This document shows positions 50,684-60,049 of a DNA stretch of 60,958 nucleotides, piece by piece. A model generated the notes under the pieces. The model made no database searches. It saw only the letters and a program-made list of their open reading frames with translations, and was not told the origin of the DNA. Made by a program: the position numbers and the translations under genes. How positions within the stretch are numbered: position 1 is the first letter of the stretch; the number at the start of each line of letters is the position of its first letter. The DNA is from Myxococcota bacterium (GTDB lineage: Bacteria > Myxococcota_A > UBA9042 > DTJE01), in assembly GCA_017994695.1 (NCBI GenBank), contig JAGOKF010000015.1, forward strand, positions 1 to 60,958, in the 5' to 3' direction.

Positions 50684-52534
50684 ATGAATGGGACCCTCCG
50701 GTGGACCTGGGTCTTTCTCCTCGTCGCCGCGGTTGCCCGCGCCGAGACTCCCCCCCCGGAACCCCCGGACGCGACCTCTCCGGGAGGATCCGCCGAGGAG
50801 GCCCTTCCGGGTGTCGATGACCTCCTGGGCCGCCGGGCCGATGAAGCCGTCCGGGACTGGTCCGCCCTGCCACCCCGGGACCCGTCCCGCACCTTCCCCT
50901 GGTTCGAACACCACGGCTACTTCCGGCTGCGCATCGACGGCTACTGGCGCCCCCACCTGGGAACGGAGGCCATCGCGAACGGGACCACCGTGAACACCTC
51001 CGCCTACCGCCCGCCCCTGAACGCCAATGCGACGAACCAGGACCCGGGCCAGGACTGGATCGGCGGAGCCAACATGCGCCTGCGCTGGGCCCCCGTGCTC
51101 CACGTCTCGCCCCGGATCGAGGTCCAGGCCGAGGTGGACGTCCTGGACAACCTGGTGCTCGGCAGTACGCCGGACGCCGACCCCGACCGCGCCGACGCCC
51201 CCCTGCCCGTCTACTCCCGGAGCCAGGCCCCGGCCTCGGCCACCCGCATGGGGGGGCGCGACCCGGTCACGGTGAAGCAGGCGTTCGTGTCCTGGACGCC
51301 CTTCCTGCCCCCGGACGACCGGGGCTTCCTGCTGCGCCTGTCGGGGGGCCGCATGGCCCGGCAGTGGGGTCTGGGAATCCTGGAGAACGCCGGACGGGAC
51401 CTGGATTCCGACTACGGCACCTACCAGGACCGGGTGAATCTCCTGGCGCGAATCGGCGGGATCTACACGGAACTGGGGTACACCTGGGTGGCCTCGGGGC
51501 CCAACACGATGGACCCCTCGCAGCCCTACGGCGAAACCCACGACCTGTCCAACGCCGACGACGTCTGGGACCTCTCCCTGGCGATCTTCCGCCGCCCGGA
51601 CACCGACGCGGAAAAGCGGAAGCGGTACCGGGACCTCGTGGTGCTGAACCGCCCGGTGGTGGACGGCGGAGGATACCTGGTCTTCCGGCGCCAGAACCTG
51701 GACGTGAAGCCCGCGATGGACGGGTCCGTCACCGCGATGCCTTCGACTCCCTACGACGATGTCGCCCTGGAGAAGCGGAACGGCTGGATGCTGACCCCGG
51801 ACCTTTGGCTCCGCCTGGAATGGAAGCCGTCCCTGAAGGAGCACGTGCGCGTCGAGGTCGAGTTCGCGGGGGTCTTCGGCCACATCCAGAACGTGCCCCG
51901 CTTCCGGTACGATGCGGTGTCCTCATCCTGGCAGGCCGACGGGTCGGCACCGCTCGACATCCGTTCCTTCGGCGGGGCCCTGGAGGGGGAATACGTCCGG
52001 GGCCCGATCTCCACGGGACTCTACGCCGGGTTCGCGACCGGCACCGACGCCCCCTGGTGGGGCTGGCGGGATCGGAACAACGTCACCACCAACCGTGGCC
52101 TCCGATCCCTGCGGTCCTTTTACTTCCATCCCGACTACCGGGTGGACCAGATGCTGTTCCGGAACGTCGTCGGGACCGTCACGAACGCCTGGTACGTGAA
52201 GCCCTTCGTCCAGTACGACCTCTTCGAAGGGGACCAGGACGCCCTGGCGGGACGCCTGGAGGTCCTCTACGGCAGGGCCTTCCAGGCCAGGGCGACCCCC
52301 GGGGGCAAGGATCCGAACCTGGGCGTCGAACTGCTGGTCCGGCTCTTCTACGAAGAGAAGGGGGCCTTCTACGCGGGCCTGGACTGGGCGACCCTCTTCC
52401 CCTTCGACGGCCTGGACCTCCCGGCGACCTACGGCTGCCCCGAGGACGGCAGCGGCAACCCGACCGCCTGCCACGCCGCCCGGAACGCCCGCTGGTCGAT
52501 GGCGGTCCGGGGCCGGTTCGGGGTGATGTTCTGA
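50684..52534 (+). CDS. TIGR04551-type outer-membrane beta-barrel protein
   Basis: A 616-residue product. A signal peptide (about 1-21, ending ARA) is followed by a Pro/Gly/Glu-rich linker. The body is many antiparallel strands: GYFRLRIDGYWRPHLG, GANMRLRWAPVLHVSP, VTVKQAFVSWTPFLPP, RVNLLARIGGIYTELGY and others. The C-terminus is AVRGRFGVMF, with terminal Phe for BAM recognition. Two Cys (GCPEDG and ACHAA) sit in a late loop. It fits the TIGR04551 family, which is restricted to Myxococcota-like bacteria and of unknown transport role. It has its own promoter and is not in the pilin operon. Confidence 0.75.
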   Translation: MNGTLRWTWVFLLVAAVARAETPPPEPPDATSPGGSAEEALPGVDDLLGRRADEAVRDWSALPPRDPSRTFPWFEHHGYFRLRIDGYWRPHLGTEAIANGTTVNTSAYRPPLNANATNQDPGQDWIGGANMRLRWAPVLHVSPRIEVQAEVDVLDNLVLGSTPDADPDRADAPLPVYSRSQAPASATRMGGRDPVTVKQAFVSWTPFLPPDDRGFLLRLSGGRMARQWGLGILENAGRDLDSDYGTYQDRVNLLARIGGIYTELGYTWVASGPNTMDPSQPYGETHDLSNADDVWDLSLAIFRRPDTDAEKRKRYRDLVVLNRPVVDGGGYLVFRRQNLDVKPAMDGSVTAMPSTPYDDVALEKRNGWMLTPDLWLRLEWKPSLKEHVRVEVEFAGVFGHIQNVPRFRYDAVSSSWQADGSAPLDIRSFGGALEGEYVRGPISTGLYAGFATGTDAPWWGWRDRNNVTTNRGLRSLRSFYFHPDYRVDQMLFRNVVGTVTNAWYVKPFVQYDLFEGDQDALAGRLEVLYGRAFQARATPGGKDPNLGVELLVRLFYEEKGAFYAGLDWATLFPFDGLDLPATYGCPEDGSGNPTACHAARNARWSMAVRGRFGVMF

Positions 52535-52710
52535 CCTGTCTCCGTCGCAAGGATTTCCCCTCTGTGAATCGTTTGCACACCCATGGAGCGTCGGTTCGGT
52601 CGAATGTCGCTTTTTGGGCGTTTTTCCAGCACGTTGCAATCGAAGGAAGAATGCACTTTCGGGCACATTTATTGCAGGATGAAGCGCTGGGTTCCGGGAG
52701 GGAGTGGCCG
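52535..52710 (+). other. AT-rich upstream region of the minor-pilin operon
   Basis: This 176-base gap is clearly richer in A and T than its surroundings, with two T5 runs (near 52611 and 52621). TTGCA-like words occur at 52573, 52634 and 52672. It is the expected place for activator sites of a sigma-54 promoter. No gene is seen in it. Confidence 0.5.
52661..52676 (+). promoter_or_regulatory. sigma-54 promoter of the minor-pilin operon
   Basis: GGGCAC-ATTTA-TTGCA: it matches the consensus TGGCAC-N5-TTGCA at every position except the first T. GG (52662-52663) and GC (52674-52675) have the exact 12-base spacing. Transcription would begin near 52687, 24 bases before the first pilin gene. In Myxococcus and Geobacter, pilin genes are sigma-54 dependent through PilR. 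Confidence 0.8.
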
Positions 52711-53313
52711 ATGAACCATCGCGTTCCGGCAACCGGTTTCACGCTGGTGGAACTGATGGTGACGGTGGCGATGATCGGCGTGCTGGCCGTCATCGCGATC
52801 CCCTCGGTGATGGAGGCCATGCAGAAACGGGAGGTGGTCCAGGCGTCCCAGGCGGCCCTGGACCTGGTGGAGTACGCCCGGGTCCAGGCGGCAGCCCGGA
52901 ATCGCGCCTACGCGTTGCGCGTGAGCGTGGCCTCGGGCGGCACGGCGGGGGGCCGCATCCAGTTGTGGGAGAACACGACCTCCTCCTGCTTCGGGTTCAA
53001 CGCCGCCGGCCCCGGTGGCGAAACGTCCCGGATGGTGCGGGAACTGGACCTGTCGGCCTCCTATCCCACCGTCGTGCTGTTCGAGGTCCAACCCCAGGAC
53101 CTGCCCAATTCTCCGCTCTGCATCAAGCCCGACGGCCGGGTCTTCCAGGTGGTGAACGATGCCACCGCGGTGATCATCCCGTCGGGGGACAACTTCGCCG
53201 GCGGGGATGCCCGGATCCGGTTCCAGCGGCTGAACAAGATCGGGCGAAGGGAGGGGCCGGTCCACGCGCTGGCCATCCCCTTCAATGGGCTTGCACGGGT
53301 GGTGGTGGAATGA
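52711..53313 (+). CDS. minor pseudopilin, FimU/GspH type
   Basis: A 200-residue product; GGGAGGGAG lies before the ATG at 52711. The prepilin leader is short (MNHRVPATG), followed by the peptidase site G|FTLVELMVTVAMIGVLAVIAI with Glu at position 5. The globular part has 3 Cys and matches the FimU/GspH pattern (KREVVQASQAALDLVEYARVQAAARN). Minor pilins prime pilus assembly. First gene of the pilV-pilW-pilX-pilY1-like operon behind the sigma-54 promoter. Confidence 0.85.
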   Translation: MNHRVPATGFTLVELMVTVAMIGVLAVIAIPSVMEAMQKREVVQASQAALDLVEYARVQAAARNRAYALRVSVASGGTAGGRIQLWENTTSSCFGFNAAGPGGETSRMVRELDLSASYPTVVLFEVQPQDLPNSPLCIKPDGRVFQVVNDATAVIIPSGDNFAGGDARIRFQRLNKIGRREGPVHALAIPFNGLARVVVE

Positions 53314-53975
53314 CGTCGTTCCGGTGTGATTCCAGGTTGTCCACCGGGGTCCGGGGGACCGGTCCGGCCGGACGCGCCCTCCGGGGATACACCCTCATCG
53401 AGGTGCTGGTCGTGATCGCGGTCACGGTGGTGGGCTTCCTGGCCCTGACCCACCTCCAGACCTCGGTGCTGAAGGCCAACGAGAACGCATGGAACATGAC
53501 GGGAGCAGTCCGCCTGGCCACCCACGTCCAGGAAACGATCCGATCCGAGGCCCTGCGGTGGTACAACGACACCTACAACGGCGCCGGCGGCGTCGCACAG
53601 AACGACTTCCTCTACCTCCGGTGGGTCGGGCCGCCCAACCTCAACGGCACCTCGGGATGGCGTTCCGCGGGCTTCTACCCCGACGGGACCCCCTTTGCCC
53701 TGGTGAACCAGGTGGGGATCCAGCCGGCCTGGGACGCCGGCGTGCTGCGCCACGTTCCCGGGAACCGGAACGCCCGCTACTGCGTGGAGTACCGGCTGAC
53801 CTGGCTTGTCCCGGACTTCCTGATCCGCTCCGAGGTCCGGGTGCTCTGGCCCCGACCGGGTGCCCGTGCGGGGCTCTACGACTCCTGCCCGGCCGACATG
53901 GTGAACCACCCGGAGGACGTGTTTTCCATCACGATCCCTGCAACGGTGATGAAGAATGTCTTCGTGTCTCCATGA
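53310..53975 (+). CDS. pilV: minor pilin, PilV type
   Basis: A 221-residue product overlapping the first pilin gene by ATGA. A 26-residue leader ends at G|YTLIEVLVVIAVTVVGFLALTHLQ, with Glu5 present. The globular domain shows the PilV features of a Cys in CVEYRLTWLVPD and a late Cys in YDSCPADM. It should sit at the pilus tip with PilW and PilX and help present PilY1. Start choice is supported by the overlap. Confidence 0.82.
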   Translation: MTSFRCDSRLSTGVRGTGPAGRALRGYTLIEVLVVIAVTVVGFLALTHLQTSVLKANENAWNMTGAVRLATHVQETIRSEALRWYNDTYNGAGGVAQNDFLYLRWVGPPNLNGTSGWRSAGFYPDGTPFALVNQVGIQPAWDAGVLRHVPGNRNARYCVEYRLTWLVPDFLIRSEVRVLWPRPGARAGLYDSCPADMVNHPEDVFSITIPATVMKNVFVSP

Positions 53976-55122
53976 ACTCGGGACGCCCCGTCGCGGGAAG
54001 TCCCGATCCCGTCTTCCCGGCCAGGCGGGCCTGACCCTGCTGGAGGTCCTGATCGCCGGGGCCGTGTCGATGATCCTGATCGTGTCGGTGTACGCGGTCT
54101 ACTCTGCCAGCAGCCGGGGCTACCAGGTCCATCGCCAGGTCCTGGGCGCCCAGCAGCAGGCCCGCTTCGGGTTGGACCAGTTGATCCGGGACGTGTCCCT
54201 GGCCGGCTTCCTGGGGACTCCCGATTCCCAGGCCGACCCCAACGTCTGTCCCAAGCCCGCGGGAAGGCTCCGGGGCATCGTCATCCAGGAAGGGGGACCC
54301 GCCAACGGAAACCCCAGGCTGTTCCCCCAGTCGGTCACCCTCTTCGGGGCCTTCTGGAGCCAGGTCATCTATTTCTCCGAGAGCGCCGTCGGGAACCAGG
54401 TGGTGCTCCAGGCCGGCGCCACCGGGGCCCCCTTCCCGGCCAACGAGGACGAGTTCAATCGCATCTTCGCCCCGGGGCGCTTCCTCCGGCTCGTCAATGC
54501 CGACCAGTTCGAGATGTACCTGCCGATCCAGTCGAGCAATTTCCAGAACCGCCTGATCACCCTCCAGTCGCCTCTGCCCACGGCGGTGCCCCCGGACTTC
54601 TGCGGAGTCCAGGGCCTCGGGGTCGGCCTGGAGGTCAACGTGGTGGGCTACGTCCGCTATTCCCTGCAACTGGACCCTGGCGAGCGGGGCAAGGTGGACC
54701 TGGTCCGGGAGGAGATCGACGGTTCGGACCCCGCCCTGGCCCGGGTCCTTCCCCGCTCGGCCGTCAGGGTGGCCGAGTACGTCGCCGACCTGGCCTTCCT
54801 GGACTTCACGCTGGACGTGGACCGCACCCGGCGTCAGCCGACGATCCAGGTCCTGGCCACCCTGGAGGACCTCCAGGCCACCGGCAACCAGCTGCTGGAC
54901 CTGAGCGACGCCGCCCGGCCCCAGGACCTCCGGGCCCTGACCGTGATGCTGACCACCCGGACCCAGGAGGAGGACGAGGCCTTCCCCTTCGTGGCCCGGG
55001 CCACCCGGAACGATCCCCTGGACTCCTACGAGGTGGATCCCGCGATGCGGGGATCGGCCCGGACGGTGACGATGGCCCAGAGGGTGACCCTGCCCTCCTT
55101 CGCCGTGAGGAACGTGAAATGA
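53956..55122 (+). CDS. pilW: minor pilin, PilW type
   Basis: A 388-residue product; its ATG at 53956 lies 20 bases inside pilV. The leader ends at AG|LTLLEVLIAGAVSMILIVSVYAVY, with Glu5 present. It has the larger C-terminal domain usual for PilW (RFGLDQLIRDVSLAGFLG after the helix, then repeated beta segments), and the family-typical VADLAFLDFTLDVD near the end. Part of the tip-complex operon. Confidence 0.82.
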   Translation: MSSCLHELGTPRRGKSRSRLPGQAGLTLLEVLIAGAVSMILIVSVYAVYSASSRGYQVHRQVLGAQQQARFGLDQLIRDVSLAGFLGTPDSQADPNVCPKPAGRLRGIVIQEGGPANGNPRLFPQSVTLFGAFWSQVIYFSESAVGNQVVLQAGATGAPFPANEDEFNRIFAPGRFLRLVNADQFEMYLPIQSSNFQNRLITLQSPLPTAVPPDFCGVQGLGVGLEVNVVGYVRYSLQLDPGERGKVDLVREEIDGSDPALARVLPRSAVRVAEYVADLAFLDFTLDVDRTRRQPTIQVLATLEDLQATGNQLLDLSDAARPQDLRALTVMLTTRTQEEDEAFPFVARATRNDPLDSYEVDPAMRGSARTVTMAQRVTLPSFAVRNVK

Positions 55123-55709
55123 GGCAGGACTCCAGGTGCCGACTCTCCACCCGGCCGGCCCCGGCACGACAGGAGGCCGGGTACATCCTGATCGTCGCGA
55201 TGCTGGTGCTGCTGGCCCTGACCAGCCTCGGGATCGCGGCCATCGAGGTGGCGTCGAATCACCTGAATCTCACCGGGAGCGCCCGCATCGCCCACGTCGC
55301 CCGGACCATCGCGGCCTCGGGCGCCGAGGGAACGATGGCCTTCGCGGGCATGAATCCCTCGGGATTCACCCAGTTCGTCGCCGCCCAGAACGGCGTGGTC
55401 CAGATGCGGGACCTCTCGGCGAACTTCTATGACACCTCCACGAACGGCAGCGGGTCCTTCGGGCGGGAGGCGGTCACGATGAACACGGCATTCTGGCAGA
55501 GCCGGATGACCTCTGCGGTGACGACCCACCGGGCCCCGGGGTTCCAGGTCGGCGAGTACTGCTTCCGGCGCTACATCTCGGAGACGCAGTCCGTCTTCCG
55601 GAACGACCTTGCCCCGGGGAGCCAGAACGCGGAAACCCTGACGCTGGACCGGAACGCCCAGGCCCGGGCGATGGCGGCGATCTTCGTCGGGCCCGTGGGC
55701 TGCCCATGA
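55119..55709 (+). CDS. pilX: minor pilin-like protein, PilX type
   Basis: A 196-residue product overlapping pilW by ATGA. The N-terminus EAG|YILIVAMLVLLALTSLGI fits the PilX N-domain, which lacks the Glu5 of the other pilins. Then EVASNHLNLTGSARIAHVARTIAASGAEG is a continuing helix. Two Cys are in the globular part. PilX-like proteins complete the minor-pilin tip complex. It overlaps the pilY1 start by ATGA. Confidence 0.78.
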   Translation: MRQDSRCRLSTRPAPARQEAGYILIVAMLVLLALTSLGIAAIEVASNHLNLTGSARIAHVARTIAASGAEGTMAFAGMNPSGFTQFVAAQNGVVQMRDLSANFYDTSTNGSGSFGREAVTMNTAFWQSRMTSAVTTHRAPGFQVGEYCFRRYISETQSVFRNDLAPGSQNAETLTLDRNAQARAMAAIFVGPVGCP

Positions 55710-58700
55710 GGAGGGCCATGAGTTCACGCCTCCGGACCCCACCCTGTCTCTGGCCGCCTCTCCTGGCGGTCCTCCTGGTTCCCCTGGCCTCCCGGGGCCA
55801 GTCCCTCCCGGCCCACGAGGTGAAGCCCATCGTGCTGATCCTGCTGGACACCTCGGGGTCCATGGAATACGACGCCGACCAGCCCGGGGTCGAGACCGGC
55901 GACAACGACGGATCCCTGACACCGCCCACCTGCGCGGGAGTCGGCAACTCCGGGAAGAGCCGGTACATCGTGGCCACGGAGGTCCTCACGGGCACCTTCG
56001 GCGACTACCAGTGCGTCCTCGAGGACCGTTCCAACAACTCGGTTCCCCCGTGTCCGCGGGAGGACTGTCCCTACCCGGTGCCCCACGTCGTTCCCCTGGG
56101 AACCCAGGCCGCTGACGGCCTGATCGATCGCAATGCCTACGACTTCAAGTTCGGCGTGATGACCTTCGACACGAAGGCCTCCCCGGCCACCAACGAGAAC
56201 GGCGGCTACTCCTACGGTCCCGAGCAGGGCGTCAACTACGGCGCCCGGAACGCCACCGCGCCCACGGGGCCGATGGTGACTCCCAGCGCGTCGGACGACC
56301 CGGCGGACGTCTTCGCACGGAACCAGGAGGTCCAGGCCTCGATCCGGTCGGCCATCCCGGTCGGGGGAACCCCCATCGCCCCGCTGCTCTATGACGCCCG
56401 CTACTTCTTCCAGAGCGATCCCTCCATCCTGAACGACCCCTTCCGGACCTGCCGCCCGAAGAGCGTGGTCCTGATCACCGACGGCCGGGCGAACCTGGGG
56501 GAGGGTTCCAATCCCTACCAGGATTCGGTCCGGGAGGCCCAGATGCTCCGGGACATGGGCGTATCGGTCTACGTCATCGGCTTCAAGCTGGCCGACGGCG
56601 TCAGCAGCCTGGCCGAGGCCATCGCCACCAACAACGGAAGCCTGGACCTGCCCTACTTCCGGGCCGACAACAGCGTGGACCTCGTGAAGGCCTTTTCCCA
56701 GATCCTCGGGAACCTGGCCGTCGCCACCCAGTCCCGGACCCGGGTCGTCGTCACCTCCGAGACGGGCAATCCCCTGGACGTCCAGTACCAGTTCAACGCG
56801 GCCCACGGCAAGGTCCCCTACCCCGGAGGGTCGGGATTCGTCCCGGGCCTGCGCCAGGGGATCATCGAGCGTTCGGTGTACCAGTGCGGCGTCAACGAGG
56901 CCCGGCCCAACGAGGCGGGACTGGCCCTGGTGCAGCGGATTTCGGACCTCCTGAACGCCCGGCAGGACACCGACCGGGACCTGTTCACCTGGATCGGGGG
57001 CGTCCGGGAGCGCTTCGAGGCCCAGAACCCGAACCTGACGGCCGCCGCCCTGGGAGCCCCCGCACCGGGGCAGCCCGTCCCCGATTTCAGCCGGGATCCC
57101 CTCACGGGTCTGTGCCGCAGCGGCTTCCTGTCGGGATCCTACGACCAGAAGATCGCCGCCTGGCGCCAGAACCTGATCGACTACGTCCGGGCCGCCGATG
57201 CCTCCTGCCGGGCCGGCTACAAGACCGGGGCCAGCGACCACGGCTCCCCGGTGATCCAGGGGAGGCTCCAGGACATGGACCTGATGATCCCCTCCTTCCG
57301 GCTCTTCCGGGACCAGATCGCGACCCGGGACGTGGTCCTCTACCTTCCGACCCACGACGGGATCCTGCACGCCTTCCGGGTGGACCGCCCCAACGGGGCC
57401 GTGGAGGACCCGGACTGGGGCCGGGAACTGTGGGGGTTCATCCCCAATCACCTGCTGACCTCCCTCCAGCAACTGCCCGACGGAAAGCGGACGGTCCTCG
57501 ACGGGTCCCCCGTCCTGAAGGACATCATCCTGAGCCGGACCCGTTCCACGCTGGACACCGAGTCGGCATCGGCCTGGCGATCCATCCTGCTCGTCGGCGA
57601 CCGGGAGGGCGGCCGGGGCCTGTCGGCCCTGGACGTCACCGACAACCGGCGGGACTACTGGCAGGTGCTCTGGGAGGTCTCGGCGACAAAAGGCCGATGC
57701 CTAGCCGGCTTCCCCACCTGCAATCCCGGCGGACCGGCGCTGTTCCAGAACGACTTCAGCCTCCTGGGCTGGTCCTTCGGCAGGCCAGAGATGGGCGTGG
57801 TGCAGGTCTGCCCCGGGGGCGCCTCCTCCTGCCTCCAGGGCAACCTCGAGGAGGTGGCCGTCGCGGTGGTTCCCGGGGGCAGCGGCAAGGACCTCGCCGC
57901 CGGATCCGGCCGGGTCCTGTACGTGATCCGCCTGGACACCGGGGAGAAGATGGCGGAGTTCCGCAGCGGGCAGGCCAACGTGGACTCGTCCTGTGCCGGG
58001 ACGAACCAGTCGATCGACTCCGACCTCGTGGGGAACGTCACCTGTTTCAGCACGTTCCCGGGCACCTACCTGTCCCGCTGCTTCGTCGGGGACAAGGCGG
58101 GACGCCTGTGGCGCCTGGAGATCGGGTCCCCGGGGATCCCGAACTGGAACCTGGCCCTCTTCTACGATCCCTACGCCTCGATCTCCCCCCTACCGGCCCT
58201 GGACGATCCCCGCCGCGCGCCGGCCTACGAGGCCCCTTCCGTGGCGATCCAGCCCGGGACGGGCCGCCTGGTCATCGTCTACGGCGCCGGGGACATGGAC
58301 CACCTGGACGACACCACCCAGATCTCCTTCGTGGCGAGCCTCCAGGAGTCCATCGAGCAGTGGCCCTTGACCCCCGTCCCCGACCGGACCTGTTCCCCCT
58401 GGAACGACGACGTCTGCCGGAAGGTCCATGCGGGCCGTGGCATGCAGGTGGGCCCCACGGTGCTCTGGAAGAAGTTCCTCGGCTACGACGCCTCCTGGAA
58501 CCTCGAGCCCGGATCGCTGCCCGGGGAGCGCCTGATGGGCGCCCCGGTCATCTTCGGCAGCGGCGCCTATTTCACGACCTTCACCCCCTCCCTGGACAAC
58601 CCCTGCCTGGCAGGCATCGGCCGGATCTACGGGGCCGTCTTCGACCGGCACGACGCGACCTGCCAGGACCTCGTGGGCCTGCTGCCGGACCCGAACGATC

Positions 58701-59029
58701 CCTTCCACTACCTGGTGTCGTCGCGCCTCGGGGAAACGACCAACGCCGGGGCCATCCCCTTCGGGCTCACGGTCGTGACCCGACCCGCCTGCATCCAGGG
58801 CGCCTCCATCGCCAGCAGCCCCCCTCCCTCGGGGGGATCGGTCGCCCCCTTCGGATCCTTCGCGGCCCCTGCTCCGACCCTCGTGGTCCAGACCGGCGTG
58901 TCCACCGAGCCCCCCTCCGAACAGCCGACCCAGGGCACCACGACCCGGATGATCCACCAGGTGACCCGGGCCCTCCGAAAGGCCATGGAATCCCTCTCGG
59001 TCTCCTCCTGGGGCATCCTGCAGGACTGA
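55706..59029 (+). CDS. pilY1: type IV pilus tip adhesin PilY1
   Basis: A 1107-residue product; an ATG at 55706 overlaps the pilX stop, and one at 55718 with GGAGGG just before it is also possible. After a signal peptide (ending SRGQ), a von Willebrand A domain carries the MIDAS motif DTSGSM (about 47) and VVLITDGRANLG. The C-terminal half is the PilY1 beta-propeller: DVVLYLPTHDGILHAFRV, ELWGFIPNHLL, SILLVGDREGGRGLSALDVT and CFVGDKAGRLWRLEIG. The usual DxDxDGxxD calcium loop before the last motif is not evident; a Cys-containing stretch replaces it. It promotes pilus extension and adhesion. No pilE-like gene follows. Confidence 0.92.
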   Translation: MRRAMSSRLRTPPCLWPPLLAVLLVPLASRGQSLPAHEVKPIVLILLDTSGSMEYDADQPGVETGDNDGSLTPPTCAGVGNSGKSRYIVATEVLTGTFGDYQCVLEDRSNNSVPPCPREDCPYPVPHVVPLGTQAADGLIDRNAYDFKFGVMTFDTKASPATNENGGYSYGPEQGVNYGARNATAPTGPMVTPSASDDPADVFARNQEVQASIRSAIPVGGTPIAPLLYDARYFFQSDPSILNDPFRTCRPKSVVLITDGRANLGEGSNPYQDSVREAQMLRDMGVSVYVIGFKLADGVSSLAEAIATNNGSLDLPYFRADNSVDLVKAFSQILGNLAVATQSRTRVVVTSETGNPLDVQYQFNAAHGKVPYPGGSGFVPGLRQGIIERSVYQCGVNEARPNEAGLALVQRISDLLNARQDTDRDLFTWIGGVRERFEAQNPNLTAAALGAPAPGQPVPDFSRDPLTGLCRSGFLSGSYDQKIAAWRQNLIDYVRAADASCRAGYKTGASDHGSPVIQGRLQDMDLMIPSFRLFRDQIATRDVVLYLPTHDGILHAFRVDRPNGAVEDPDWGRELWGFIPNHLLTSLQQLPDGKRTVLDGSPVLKDIILSRTRSTLDTESASAWRSILLVGDREGGRGLSALDVTDNRRDYWQVLWEVSATKGRCLAGFPTCNPGGPALFQNDFSLLGWSFGRPEMGVVQVCPGGASSCLQGNLEEVAVAVVPGGSGKDLAAGSGRVLYVIRLDTGEKMAEFRSGQANVDSSCAGTNQSIDSDLVGNVTCFSTFPGTYLSRCFVGDKAGRLWRLEIGSPGIPNWNLALFYDPYASISPLPALDDPRRAPAYEAPSVAIQPGTGRLVIVYGAGDMDHLDDTTQISFVASLQESIEQWPLTPVPDRTCSPWNDDVCRKVHAGRGMQVGPTVLWKKFLGYDASWNLEPGSLPGERLMGAPVIFGSGAYFTTFTPSLDNPCLAGIGRIYGAVFDRHDATCQDLVGLLPDPNDPFHYLVSSRLGETTNAGAIPFGLTVVTRPACIQGASIASSPPPSGGSVAPFGSFAAPAPTLVVQTGVSTEPPSEQPTQGTTTRMIHQVTRALRKAMESLSVSSWGILQD

Positions 59030-59047
59030 CCTCGAACGCCCTCTCGC

Positions 59048-59090
59048 GGCAAGCCCGATCCCCCGGTTCCTCCGGTCCAACGGGCTTGCC
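59048..59090 (+). terminator. hairpin at the end of the pilY1 transcript
   Basis: A perfect 10-base inverted repeat, GGCAAGCCCG (59048-59057) and CGGGCTTGCC (59081-59090), with a 23-base loop, 18 bases after the pilY1 stop. There is no T run, so it may act with Rho or only protect the 3' end. Confidence 0.5.
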
Positions 59091-59114
59091 CTGGGGGTCA
59101 TTCGATGGTAAAGA
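59086..59114 (+). promoter_or_regulatory. sigma-70 promoter of tRNA-Gln
   Basis: TTGCCC (59086-59091), a 17-base spacer and TAAAGA (59109-59114), 18 bases before the tRNA. The -35 overlaps the 3' arm of the hairpin just before it. Confidence 0.5.
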
Positions 59115-59132
59115 AGGCGACCGTTTGACGGC

Positions 59133-59203
59133 TCTCCGGTCGTCCAAGGGTAGGACACAGGACTTTGGTTCCTGGAATCGGGGTTCGAATCCCTGCCGGA
59201 GAA
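59133..59203 (+). tRNA. tRNA-Gln (anticodon TTG)
   Basis: A complete cloverleaf is visible: acceptor TCTCCGG (59133) with CCGGAGA (59196) and discriminator A; D-arm GTCC...GGAC; anticodon arm CAGGA-CTTTGGT-TCCTG with TTG at 59165-59167; a 4-base variable loop; T-arm CGGGG-TTCGAAT-CCCTG. The 3' end is followed by CCG, so CCA is not fully encoded and must be added. Confidence 0.92.
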
Positions 59204-59209
59204 CCGGAG

Positions 59210-59229
59210 GCCGGACCGGGGAATCCGGC
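59210..59229 (+). terminator. small hairpin after tRNA-Gln
   Basis: GCCGGA (59210-59215), an 8-base loop and TCCGGC (59224-59229), directly behind the tRNA. No T run; it could be a processing or weak termination signal. Confidence 0.3.
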
Positions 59230-59260
59230 ATCCACGGGCCTTTCGCATGTCGAGGAAGAG

Positions 59261-60049
59261 ATGGCTGGACGGAAGAAGGACCGGGTGACCAAAGAGGAAC
59301 TGAAGGGACCCGACGAGTTCCAGGAGTCGATGGCCAAGGTGGCCGAGTTCTTCCGCCTGTGGGGGGGCTGGATCGGCGCAGGGGTCGCCATGGTGCTGAT
59401 GGGCATCACCGCCGGGATCCTGCTGCACCGGATGGGGGAGAGTCGGGCCGTCGAGCGGGCCCGGGAGTGGAGCCAGGCTCTGGAACCCCTGTCCCAGGCT
59501 GAAAAGCAGGCCGCCGAGGCCCAGGATCCCGAGGCCGAGAAGGCGGCCCGGGAACGCATCCCGGTCCAGGCCCGGGAGACCCTGGCCCGGATCGACGCCT
59601 GGATCGCCAAGGGCCTGCCGGGTTCGATGAAGGCTTCCGCGCAGTTCACCCGCGGAGCCGCCGCGATGCAGGCCGGAGACTGGGCGCTGGCCCGGGAGGC
59701 CTTCCGGTCCTTCCTGGATGCCGAACCGAGGAGCCCCCTGGCCTGGCTGGCCTGGGAGGCCTACGGGATCGCCAGCGATCTCGCCGGTCAGCGGGCGGAT
59801 GCCGAGAGGGCCTTCCTCGAGATGGCGAAGTCGGACAGCGGCCTGGCCCGGGCGAATGCGTGGATGCATCTCGGCGACCTCTACCACCCGGCCATCGGAC
59901 GTTCCCCGAGTGATGCCGTGGATGCCGGAAAGGCCCGGGAGAACTACCAGAAGGCCCTCGAAGCCGTCTCGGGCCCCGAGGACTCCCTGCCCGTCGCCCA
60001 GCTGCTGGTTCGGCGGCTGGTCGAGGAGCGCCTGGTTTCCCTTCGCTGA
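59261..60049 (+). CDS. YfgM-like membrane-anchored TPR protein
   Basis: A 262-residue product; GAGGAAGAG lies at the ATG at 59261. An N-terminal cytoplasmic stretch of 30 charged residues is followed by one membrane helix (GGWIGAGVAMVLMGITAGILL, about 34-54) and then a periplasmic TPR-like solenoid (ETLARIDAWIAKGLPGSMKASAQFTRGAAAMQ and AREAFRSFLDAEP are typical). In E. coli yfgM lies directly before bamB, as here. YfgM contacts the SecYEG translocon and passes proteins to periplasmic chaperones. The call rests on layout and neighbour more than on sequence. Confidence 0.72.
   Translation: MAGRKKDRVTKEELKGPDEFQESMAKVAEFFRLWGGWIGAGVAMVLMGITAGILLHRMGESRAVERAREWSQALEPLSQAEKQAAEAQDPEAEKAARERIPVQARETLARIDAWIAKGLPGSMKASAQFTRGAAAMQAGDWALAREAFRSFLDAEPRSPLAWLAWEAYGIASDLAGQRADAERAFLEMAKSDSGLARANAWMHLGDLYHPAIGRSPSDAVDAGKARENYQKALEAVSGPEDSLPVAQLLVRRLVEERLVSLR

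Follow-up and report, generated by a model that had tools for sequence, protein, structure and literature searches.

PilY1 and the minor pilins have two roles in the pilus, priming its assembly and forming its adhesive tip, and to our knowledge little is known of how much of them is supplied in relation to the shaft. This question is raised by a locus in the window (the whole stretch of DNA analysed, 60,958 nucleotides from a Myxococcota bacterium, an uncultured relation of the gliding Myxococcus), where a putative tip operon stands behind a sequence resembling a sigma-54 promoter. Here, we ask whether sigma-54 RNA polymerase is likely to transcribe this operon, which activator it might use, and whether the arrangement would let the cell change pilus tips by a regulator, as the initial annotation had proposed.

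The tip operon and its promoter in the window

Five genes of FimU, PilV, PilW, PilX and PilY1 types follow one another on the forward strand with overlaps of 4 bp (fimU/pilV), 20 bp (pilV/pilW), 4 bp (pilW/pilX) and 4 bp (pilX/pilY1), in agreement with the initial annotation; the names given to them rest on gene order, prepilin motifs and weak profile matches. The operon's first prepilin, a fimU-type minor pilin (52711..53313), scored 23.5 bits against N_methyl, above the cut-off of 21.2, and the pilV-type minor pilin (53310..53975) scored 22.9 bits against the same model and 39.9 bits against the PilV model TIGR02523, under its cut-off of 52.2. The pilW-type minor pilin (53956..55122) reached 16.9 bits for N_methyl, under the cut-off, while the pilX-type minor pilin (55119..55709) had no family or profile match and is named from its position only, its N-terminal hydrophobic segment being recognised by eye. 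The N-termini of the small proteins appear to be those of class III prepilins, the N_methyl cut-off being passed by FimU and PilV, with a lower score for PilW and no match for PilX.

The last gene (55706..59029) encodes a tip adhesin of PilY1 type, its N-terminus carrying a VWA domain (26.1 bits). For this protein alone, T4P_PilY1 scored 16.4 bits, below the Pfam cut-off of 28.1, and the PilY1 structure PDB 3HX6 matched at E = 1.2e-4; against a profile built from the window protein and four relatives, the 3HX6 match strengthened to E = 8.4e-14, and T4P_PilY1 was found in three of these five PilY1 proteins at E <= 0.001. The profile match to 3HX6 identifies the protein as a PilY1 homologue. The operon is flanked on the same strand by a TIGR04551 family protein (50684..52534; NCBIfam 330.7 bits, cut-off 300), which lies outside it and by inference is outer-membrane porin-like, and by a tRNA-Gln (TTG) gene (59133..59205, ARAGORN) directly after pilY1.

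The predicted sigma-54 (-24/-12) promoter, GGGCACATTTATTGCA, occupies 52661..52676 on the forward strand and ends 34 bp 5' of fimU. It is made up of GGGCAC (52661-52666), ATTTA (52667-52671) and TTGCA (52672-52676), and differs from TGGCACN5TTGCW by one mismatch, the first letter. The GG and GC dinucleotides are correctly spaced within the TGGCAC-N5-TTGC core, so both the letters and the exact GG/GC spacing first reported for this element are borne out. From the -12 GC and the usual sigma-54 geometry, the predicted transcription start is near 52687, leaving 24 bp to the ATG, and a ribosome-binding-site-like sequence, GGGAGGGAG, can be read at 52696..52704 on the forward strand. An AT-rich tract had also been described upstream; this holds in relative terms only, since the GC content of 52581-52660 is 51%, compared with 69% for the window.

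A scan of the window for sigma-54-like sites with at most one mismatch returned 16 matches against 12.4 expected, among which 52661-52676 was the only exact GGCAC-N5-TTGC. When the 330 bp before the prepilin motif in the window were compared with 500 dinucleotide shuffles, the promoter stood out at p = 0.004. Over the whole genome to which the window belongs, such sites (at most one mismatch) numbered 49 against 68 for the reversed pattern. Because there is no genome-wide enrichment, a single genome is weak evidence, and it is the comparison across genomes that convinces. A scan for sigma-70-like promoters across 52400-59300 found none against 0.2 expected, and is uninformative because so few were expected. 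The same genome carries one rpoN gene (Sigma54_DBD), the absence of which the initial annotation had named as decisive against sigma-54 control, together with 18 strong and 3 weak matches to sigma-54 activator domains.

As a separate observation, a terminator-like hairpin of 5 pairs followed by TTTTTCC is present at 52608-52620 of the window, between the promoter and the dyad described below. Four terminator-like sites were counted in the surrounding region against 2.6 expected, so this hairpin is possibly due to chance.

Recurrence of the promoter and the upstream dyad at fimU

PilW homologues were found in 41 of 52 relatives, and a PilW profile matched at least 201 of 235 genomes of the phylum, although many of these matches cover the N-terminal prepilin segment only. 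The DNA upstream of fimU was compared across 55 loci including the window (201,741 bp), of which 35 are in the class and 20 outside it, the latter being the upper part of a longer list of PilW matches and not a random draw. Three class loci whose contigs end before the fimU upstream region (L070, L074, L080) and the PilW matches of G029, G043 and G050, which lie at contig edges, were left out. Eight records in the comparison carry the taxon labels Deltaproteobacteria (3), Myxococcales (3), Myxococcota (1) and Oligoflexales (1).

At a sigma-54 score of 14.4 or more (maximum 15.9), the sense strand of the 55 loci contained 46 sites, 45 of which lay just 5' of fimU; the sole site away from fimU was in L241, and the antisense strand of the same 201,741 bp had none. 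Strong promoters were seen at fimU in 9/10 loci of the same family, 9/10 of other class families, 14/15 of family f6 and 13/20 outside the class. The ten loci without one were L068, L073 and L090 together with the outside-class L236, L239, L241-L243, L246 and L250, two of the ten being short contigs. Compared with shuffles, the sigma-54 element was significant at p <= 0.008 in 18 of 19 fimU regions. In f6, where the initial motif had missed fimU, a prepilin-like frame was visible 3' of the promoter in at least 10 of 14 loci, and the distance from the promoter to the pilV motif was 723-893 bp, compared with 724 in the window. When the loci were aligned on the promoter, the GG and TTGC columns reached 2.0 bit and the flanking columns mostly 0.0-0.3 bit; as the elements were chosen by score, the flanking columns alone are informative in this alignment. 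The comparison of 45 among 55 fimU loci with one other site in 202 kb convinces us, on sequence grounds, that the promoter is real and, with rpoN present, upholds the sigma-54 control that had been proposed for the tip operon. One operon, read by sigma-54 RNA polymerase from the promoter at 52661-52676, would then encode the five proteins of the type IVa pilus tip (priming) complex (FimU-PilV-PilW-PilX-PilY1), in an arrangement that is probably old, given that it recurs at fimU in many Myxococcota families.

Sigma-54 polymerase requires an enhancer-binding ATPase, and a candidate docking site for one lies upstream. A dyad of the form GTRYGCAA-N3-TTGCRYAC has its window copy, CTGTGAATCGTTTGCACAC, at 52562..52580 on the forward strand, starting 99 bp 5' of the -24 element; this copy is imperfect, with one mismatch to STNYGMAANNNTTKCRNAS. 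The dyad was first seen about 100 bp upstream in regions of the same family, as GTRYGMAA-N3-TTKCRYAC, and was then loosened to STNYGMAANNNTTKCRNAS on further families. That form was set before any f6 dyad was seen, i.e. without f6, with the reservation that half-sites had appeared in three f6 loci before the full test of that family. Pairs of dyad and promoter were scored with at most 3/14 mismatches, an N3 spacer and 40-125 bp between the two elements. Such pairs occurred in 13/15 f6 loci, with a spacing of 78-83 bp in 12 of them and of 112 bp in the other (L088), which is a poor match. On the sense strand of the other groups, they occurred in 7/10 loci of the same family, 6/10 of other class families and 14/20 outside the class, where the pair in L241 is far from fimU and that in L247 is weak. 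No pair was found on the antisense strand in about 202 kb. Across loci, the spacing from dyad to -24 element ranged over 61-122 bp.

The dyad is not universal. The N3 pair was absent in seven class loci outside f6 (L065, L068, L069, L073, L078, L096 and L098), two of which (L065 and L069) carry an N4 version. Against shuffles, the dyad reached p <= 0.05 in 9 of 19 fimU regions, six from the family in which it was discovered and three among the 10 others, compared with 1 of 30 pilA regions. Nor is it enriched genome-wide: with at most two mismatches, it had 11 sites against 15 for the reversed control in the genome of the window, and 27 against 21 in nine relatives. Among the 11 sites in the genome of the window, that at fimU alone had a sigma-54 score above 14.0 in the downstream range (the next best, in L190, scored 14.0), and a pattern of half-dyad plus promoter occurred a single time in this genome, at fimU. 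Over 188 genomes the same pattern gave 93 matches against 69 reversed; of the 93, 12 were counted by hand 5' of a PilW match, most such loci having shaped the pattern. In 30 of these 93 loci that were examined, two matches were near an activator motif, both without the left arm.

On these data, the activator that the tip promoter would need most likely docks at the dyad of 52562-52580. An alternative reading is that it serves another regulator, such as a repressor or nucleoid protein, with the activator binding elsewhere. Dyads do exist without a sigma-54 promoter: the palindrome CTACGAAAA-N-GATGCGTAG, whose last base varies, has no nearby sigma-54 element at G000:C45:2824-2842 (L187) and recurs in three relatives (G001:C15:72835, G002:C99:23487 and G008:C108:8509), and the fimU dyad itself is found at fimU without a strong promoter in four outside-class loci (L239, L241, L246 and L250). 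However, the dyad resembles an enhancer both in position, 61-122 bp 5' of the -24 element, and in its coupling to the promoter across families, and we consider another role for it unlikely.

pilA and the putative activator of the tip operon

The initial annotation suggested searching for the same promoter at the gene for the shaft subunit. In the genome of the window, pilA (C151:7748-8326) is on another contig than the tip operon and has a perfect TGGCACGCTGGTTGCA at G000:C151:7643, so the same kind of promoter is indeed present. Among the matches listed, 30 pilA loci were counted, leaving out the same-family G007, G009 and G010, and in 26 of the 30 the sigma-54 element was significant against shuffles at p <= 0.010. 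A dyad is found here too, of a different form, GTGACA-N5-TGTCAC. It was present with 1-2/12 mismatches in 10/10 same-family loci read, 100-102 bp 5' of the -24 element (one of these loci having a second copy at 148 bp); the copy in the genome of the window, GTGACAAAAAATGTCC, lies 102 bp upstream with 2 mismatches. At p <= 0.05, this dyad was above chance in 20 of 30 pilA regions and in none of the 19 fimU regions. With at most two mismatches, it had 23 sites in the genome of the window against 13 for the control. Its TGTC half sites resemble PilR sites; the pilA dyad is in this sense PilR-like, and PilR would be the likely activator of pilA.

Control of both pilA and the tip operon by PilR, as the initial annotation would have it, would require PilR to act at fimU through a site too degenerate to see. 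Both promoters are of the sigma-54 type, as this reading expects. By contrast, the dyad that marks pilA in the ten same-family loci is not above chance at fimU, which leaves PilR control of the tip operon unsupported; in its place, fimU has a different dyad in the nine regions mentioned above. Likewise, in the stretch of the window where a search for PilR sites had been suggested (52540-52650), the dyad present (52562-52580) is of another type than that of pilA. PilR as the sole regulator of both therefore seems to us quite unlikely.

As pilA and fimU share sigma-54 but carry different dyads, tip and shaft probably use different activators. The preferred reading, which we hold to be likely, is thus of a sigma-54 tip operon with its own dyad and an activator differing from that of pilA. 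The promoter, the dyad, the recurrence of both and the different dyad at pilA can be read directly from the DNA; that the dyads bind activators, and that these differ between fimU and pilA, we infer. Shaft and tip would then be two sigma-54 genes with two activators, the shaft subunits and the priming/tip complexes being supplied on separate signals. A broader version of this proposal, whose chances we judge to be even, would make it an ancient two-key circuit across Myxococcota, in which sigma-54 acts at both pilA and the tip operon through separate dyads and activators, two signals must agree before a pilus is made, and tip switching in lineages that multiplied their clusters, such as M. xanthus, was built on an older, separate control of the tip.

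Which protein might act at the fimU dyad? In M. xanthus, the NtrC-like HsfA is reported to bind the promoters of pilY1.1 and pilY1.3 directly, shifting their expression in opposite directions (PMC9109919), and it has been called an enhancer-binding protein (PMC7910581). By this parallel, our best guess for the protein acting on the tip operon is a response regulator of the HsfA type. A narrower possibility, that the activator is the orthologue of HsfA itself and the fimU dyad its box, is tentative. The organisms share a phylum and at least six activators in the genome of the window carry a receiver domain, in keeping with an orthologue; on the other hand, a motif scan recognised no HsfB-like kinase beside an activator in this genome, the scan being weak enough to have missed the L139 kinase that Pfam finds. 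HsfA also lowers pilY1.3, and so is not simply an activator.

Further searches bore on the activator genes themselves. A scan for the GAFTGA activator motif beside the operon in the fimU loci, covering about 4 kb upstream at most, found none, and for six activators compared with NCBIfam, all models shown were below cut-off and supplied no names. Sigma-54 elements beside activators of the genome of the window (L131, L133, L136, L139 and L142) had perfect palindromes upstream in three of five cases, and none of the palindromes at these loci resembles the fimU dyad.

Several observations in the same genome concern other activators. The activator at C15:13439, with its adjacent kinase, is a candidate PilR. 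On the same contig, at L137:5990-8882 (G000:C15), a sigma-54 response regulator whose GAFTGA loop reads GAFTDA stands in tandem with a histidine kinase. Strong sigma-54 elements were also seen at L133:7185, L139:7379 and L147:4676 (minus strand), on contigs C20, C90 and C50, two of them adjoining activator genes. Upstream of these three elements are long perfect palindromes (TCTGTCATATCCGACAGA, CCTCGACCAAATGGTCGAGG and CCATGACAGGCCTGTCATGG), each of which is perhaps the site of a different activator.

Tip clusters, known systems and other sites of the dyad

The proposal that a regulator could change pilus tips at this locus presupposes two or more tip clusters. Searches of the genome of the window (G000; draft, 158 contigs, 96.7% complete) by protein and by profile each led to one PilW-type locus, and the prepilin motifs number eight in all, two of them in the tip operon. 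The finding of one PilW locus does not agree with tip switching in this genome. In M. xanthus the clusters number three (PMC7541494), and regulator-driven choice of tip through HsfBA was put forward there (PMC9109919, PMC7541494); HsfA is also cited as acting on the balance between clusters 1 and 3 in a myxobacterial PilY1 survey of 2026 (PMC13190605), the main text of which contains neither 'sigma' nor 'promoter'. For the organism studied here, we regard a tip-switching device as very improbable.

Of the known systems, HsfBA at pilY1.1 and pilY1.3 of M. xanthus is in the same phylum and concerns the same FimU-PilV-PilW-PilX-PilY1 type of operon, with an NtrC-like regulator acting at the promoter (PMC9109919). 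There, the clusters number three, 'sigma' has no match in the main text of that paper, and the text consulted contains no map of the promoter; here, one cluster was found, and promoter and dyad are defined by comparison. In Geobacter sulfurreducens, PilR and sigma-54 act at pilA (PMC2725144), where we find the same kind of promoter; that case concerns the major pilin, whereas here the tip operon has its own promoter and a different dyad. The P. aeruginosa fimU-pilVWXY1E genes form an equivalent set but are called Vfr-dependent (PMC6058289), no sigma-54 promoter at fimU being described in the text consulted; two further papers concern these genes (PMC5979040, PMC4064291), and FimS-AlgR is named in one title. 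Sigma-54 has been linked in general terms to pili and flagella in an account of its control of the bacterial exterior (PMC3162934), the main text of which has no match for pilY, fimU or minor pilin. Control of pilA by sigma-54 (PMC2725144) and a regulator at the M. xanthus pilY1 promoters are thus already known. Within the passages of the open PMC literature that were consulted, we found no description of a sigma-54 promoter at a fimU operon; as far as these searches show, its apparent recurrence at fimU operons across the phylum, with a dyad of its own and in contrast to pilA, is new.

The recurring promoter and dyad provide a defined target for mutation in M. xanthus, and two activators are predicted from the difference between the pilA dyad and that of fimU. 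They also offer a sequence-level frame for the reported effect of HsfA on the choice of PilY1.

Sites resembling the fimU dyad were also seen before other genes. Of 27 dyad sites in G134 and G144, two belong to the fimU operons and the others to secreted lipoproteins or mixed targets, with no activator recognised among them. At L270, L277 and L293 in these two genomes, a fimU-type dyad is followed 80-93 bp on by a sigma-54-like element (13.8-14.2) and then by secreted lipoprotein-like frames, which suggests that the activator may have further targets elsewhere. L271 (G134:C2:1590826) has a fimU-type dyad free of mismatches, a sigma-54 element (15.2) 125 bp further along and no clear gene after it. 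Finally, at L298 (G085:C85:18950), a full dyad, CTACGCAATCTTTGCATAG, and a sigma-54 element precede a secreted protein that is PilY1-like by its N-terminus.
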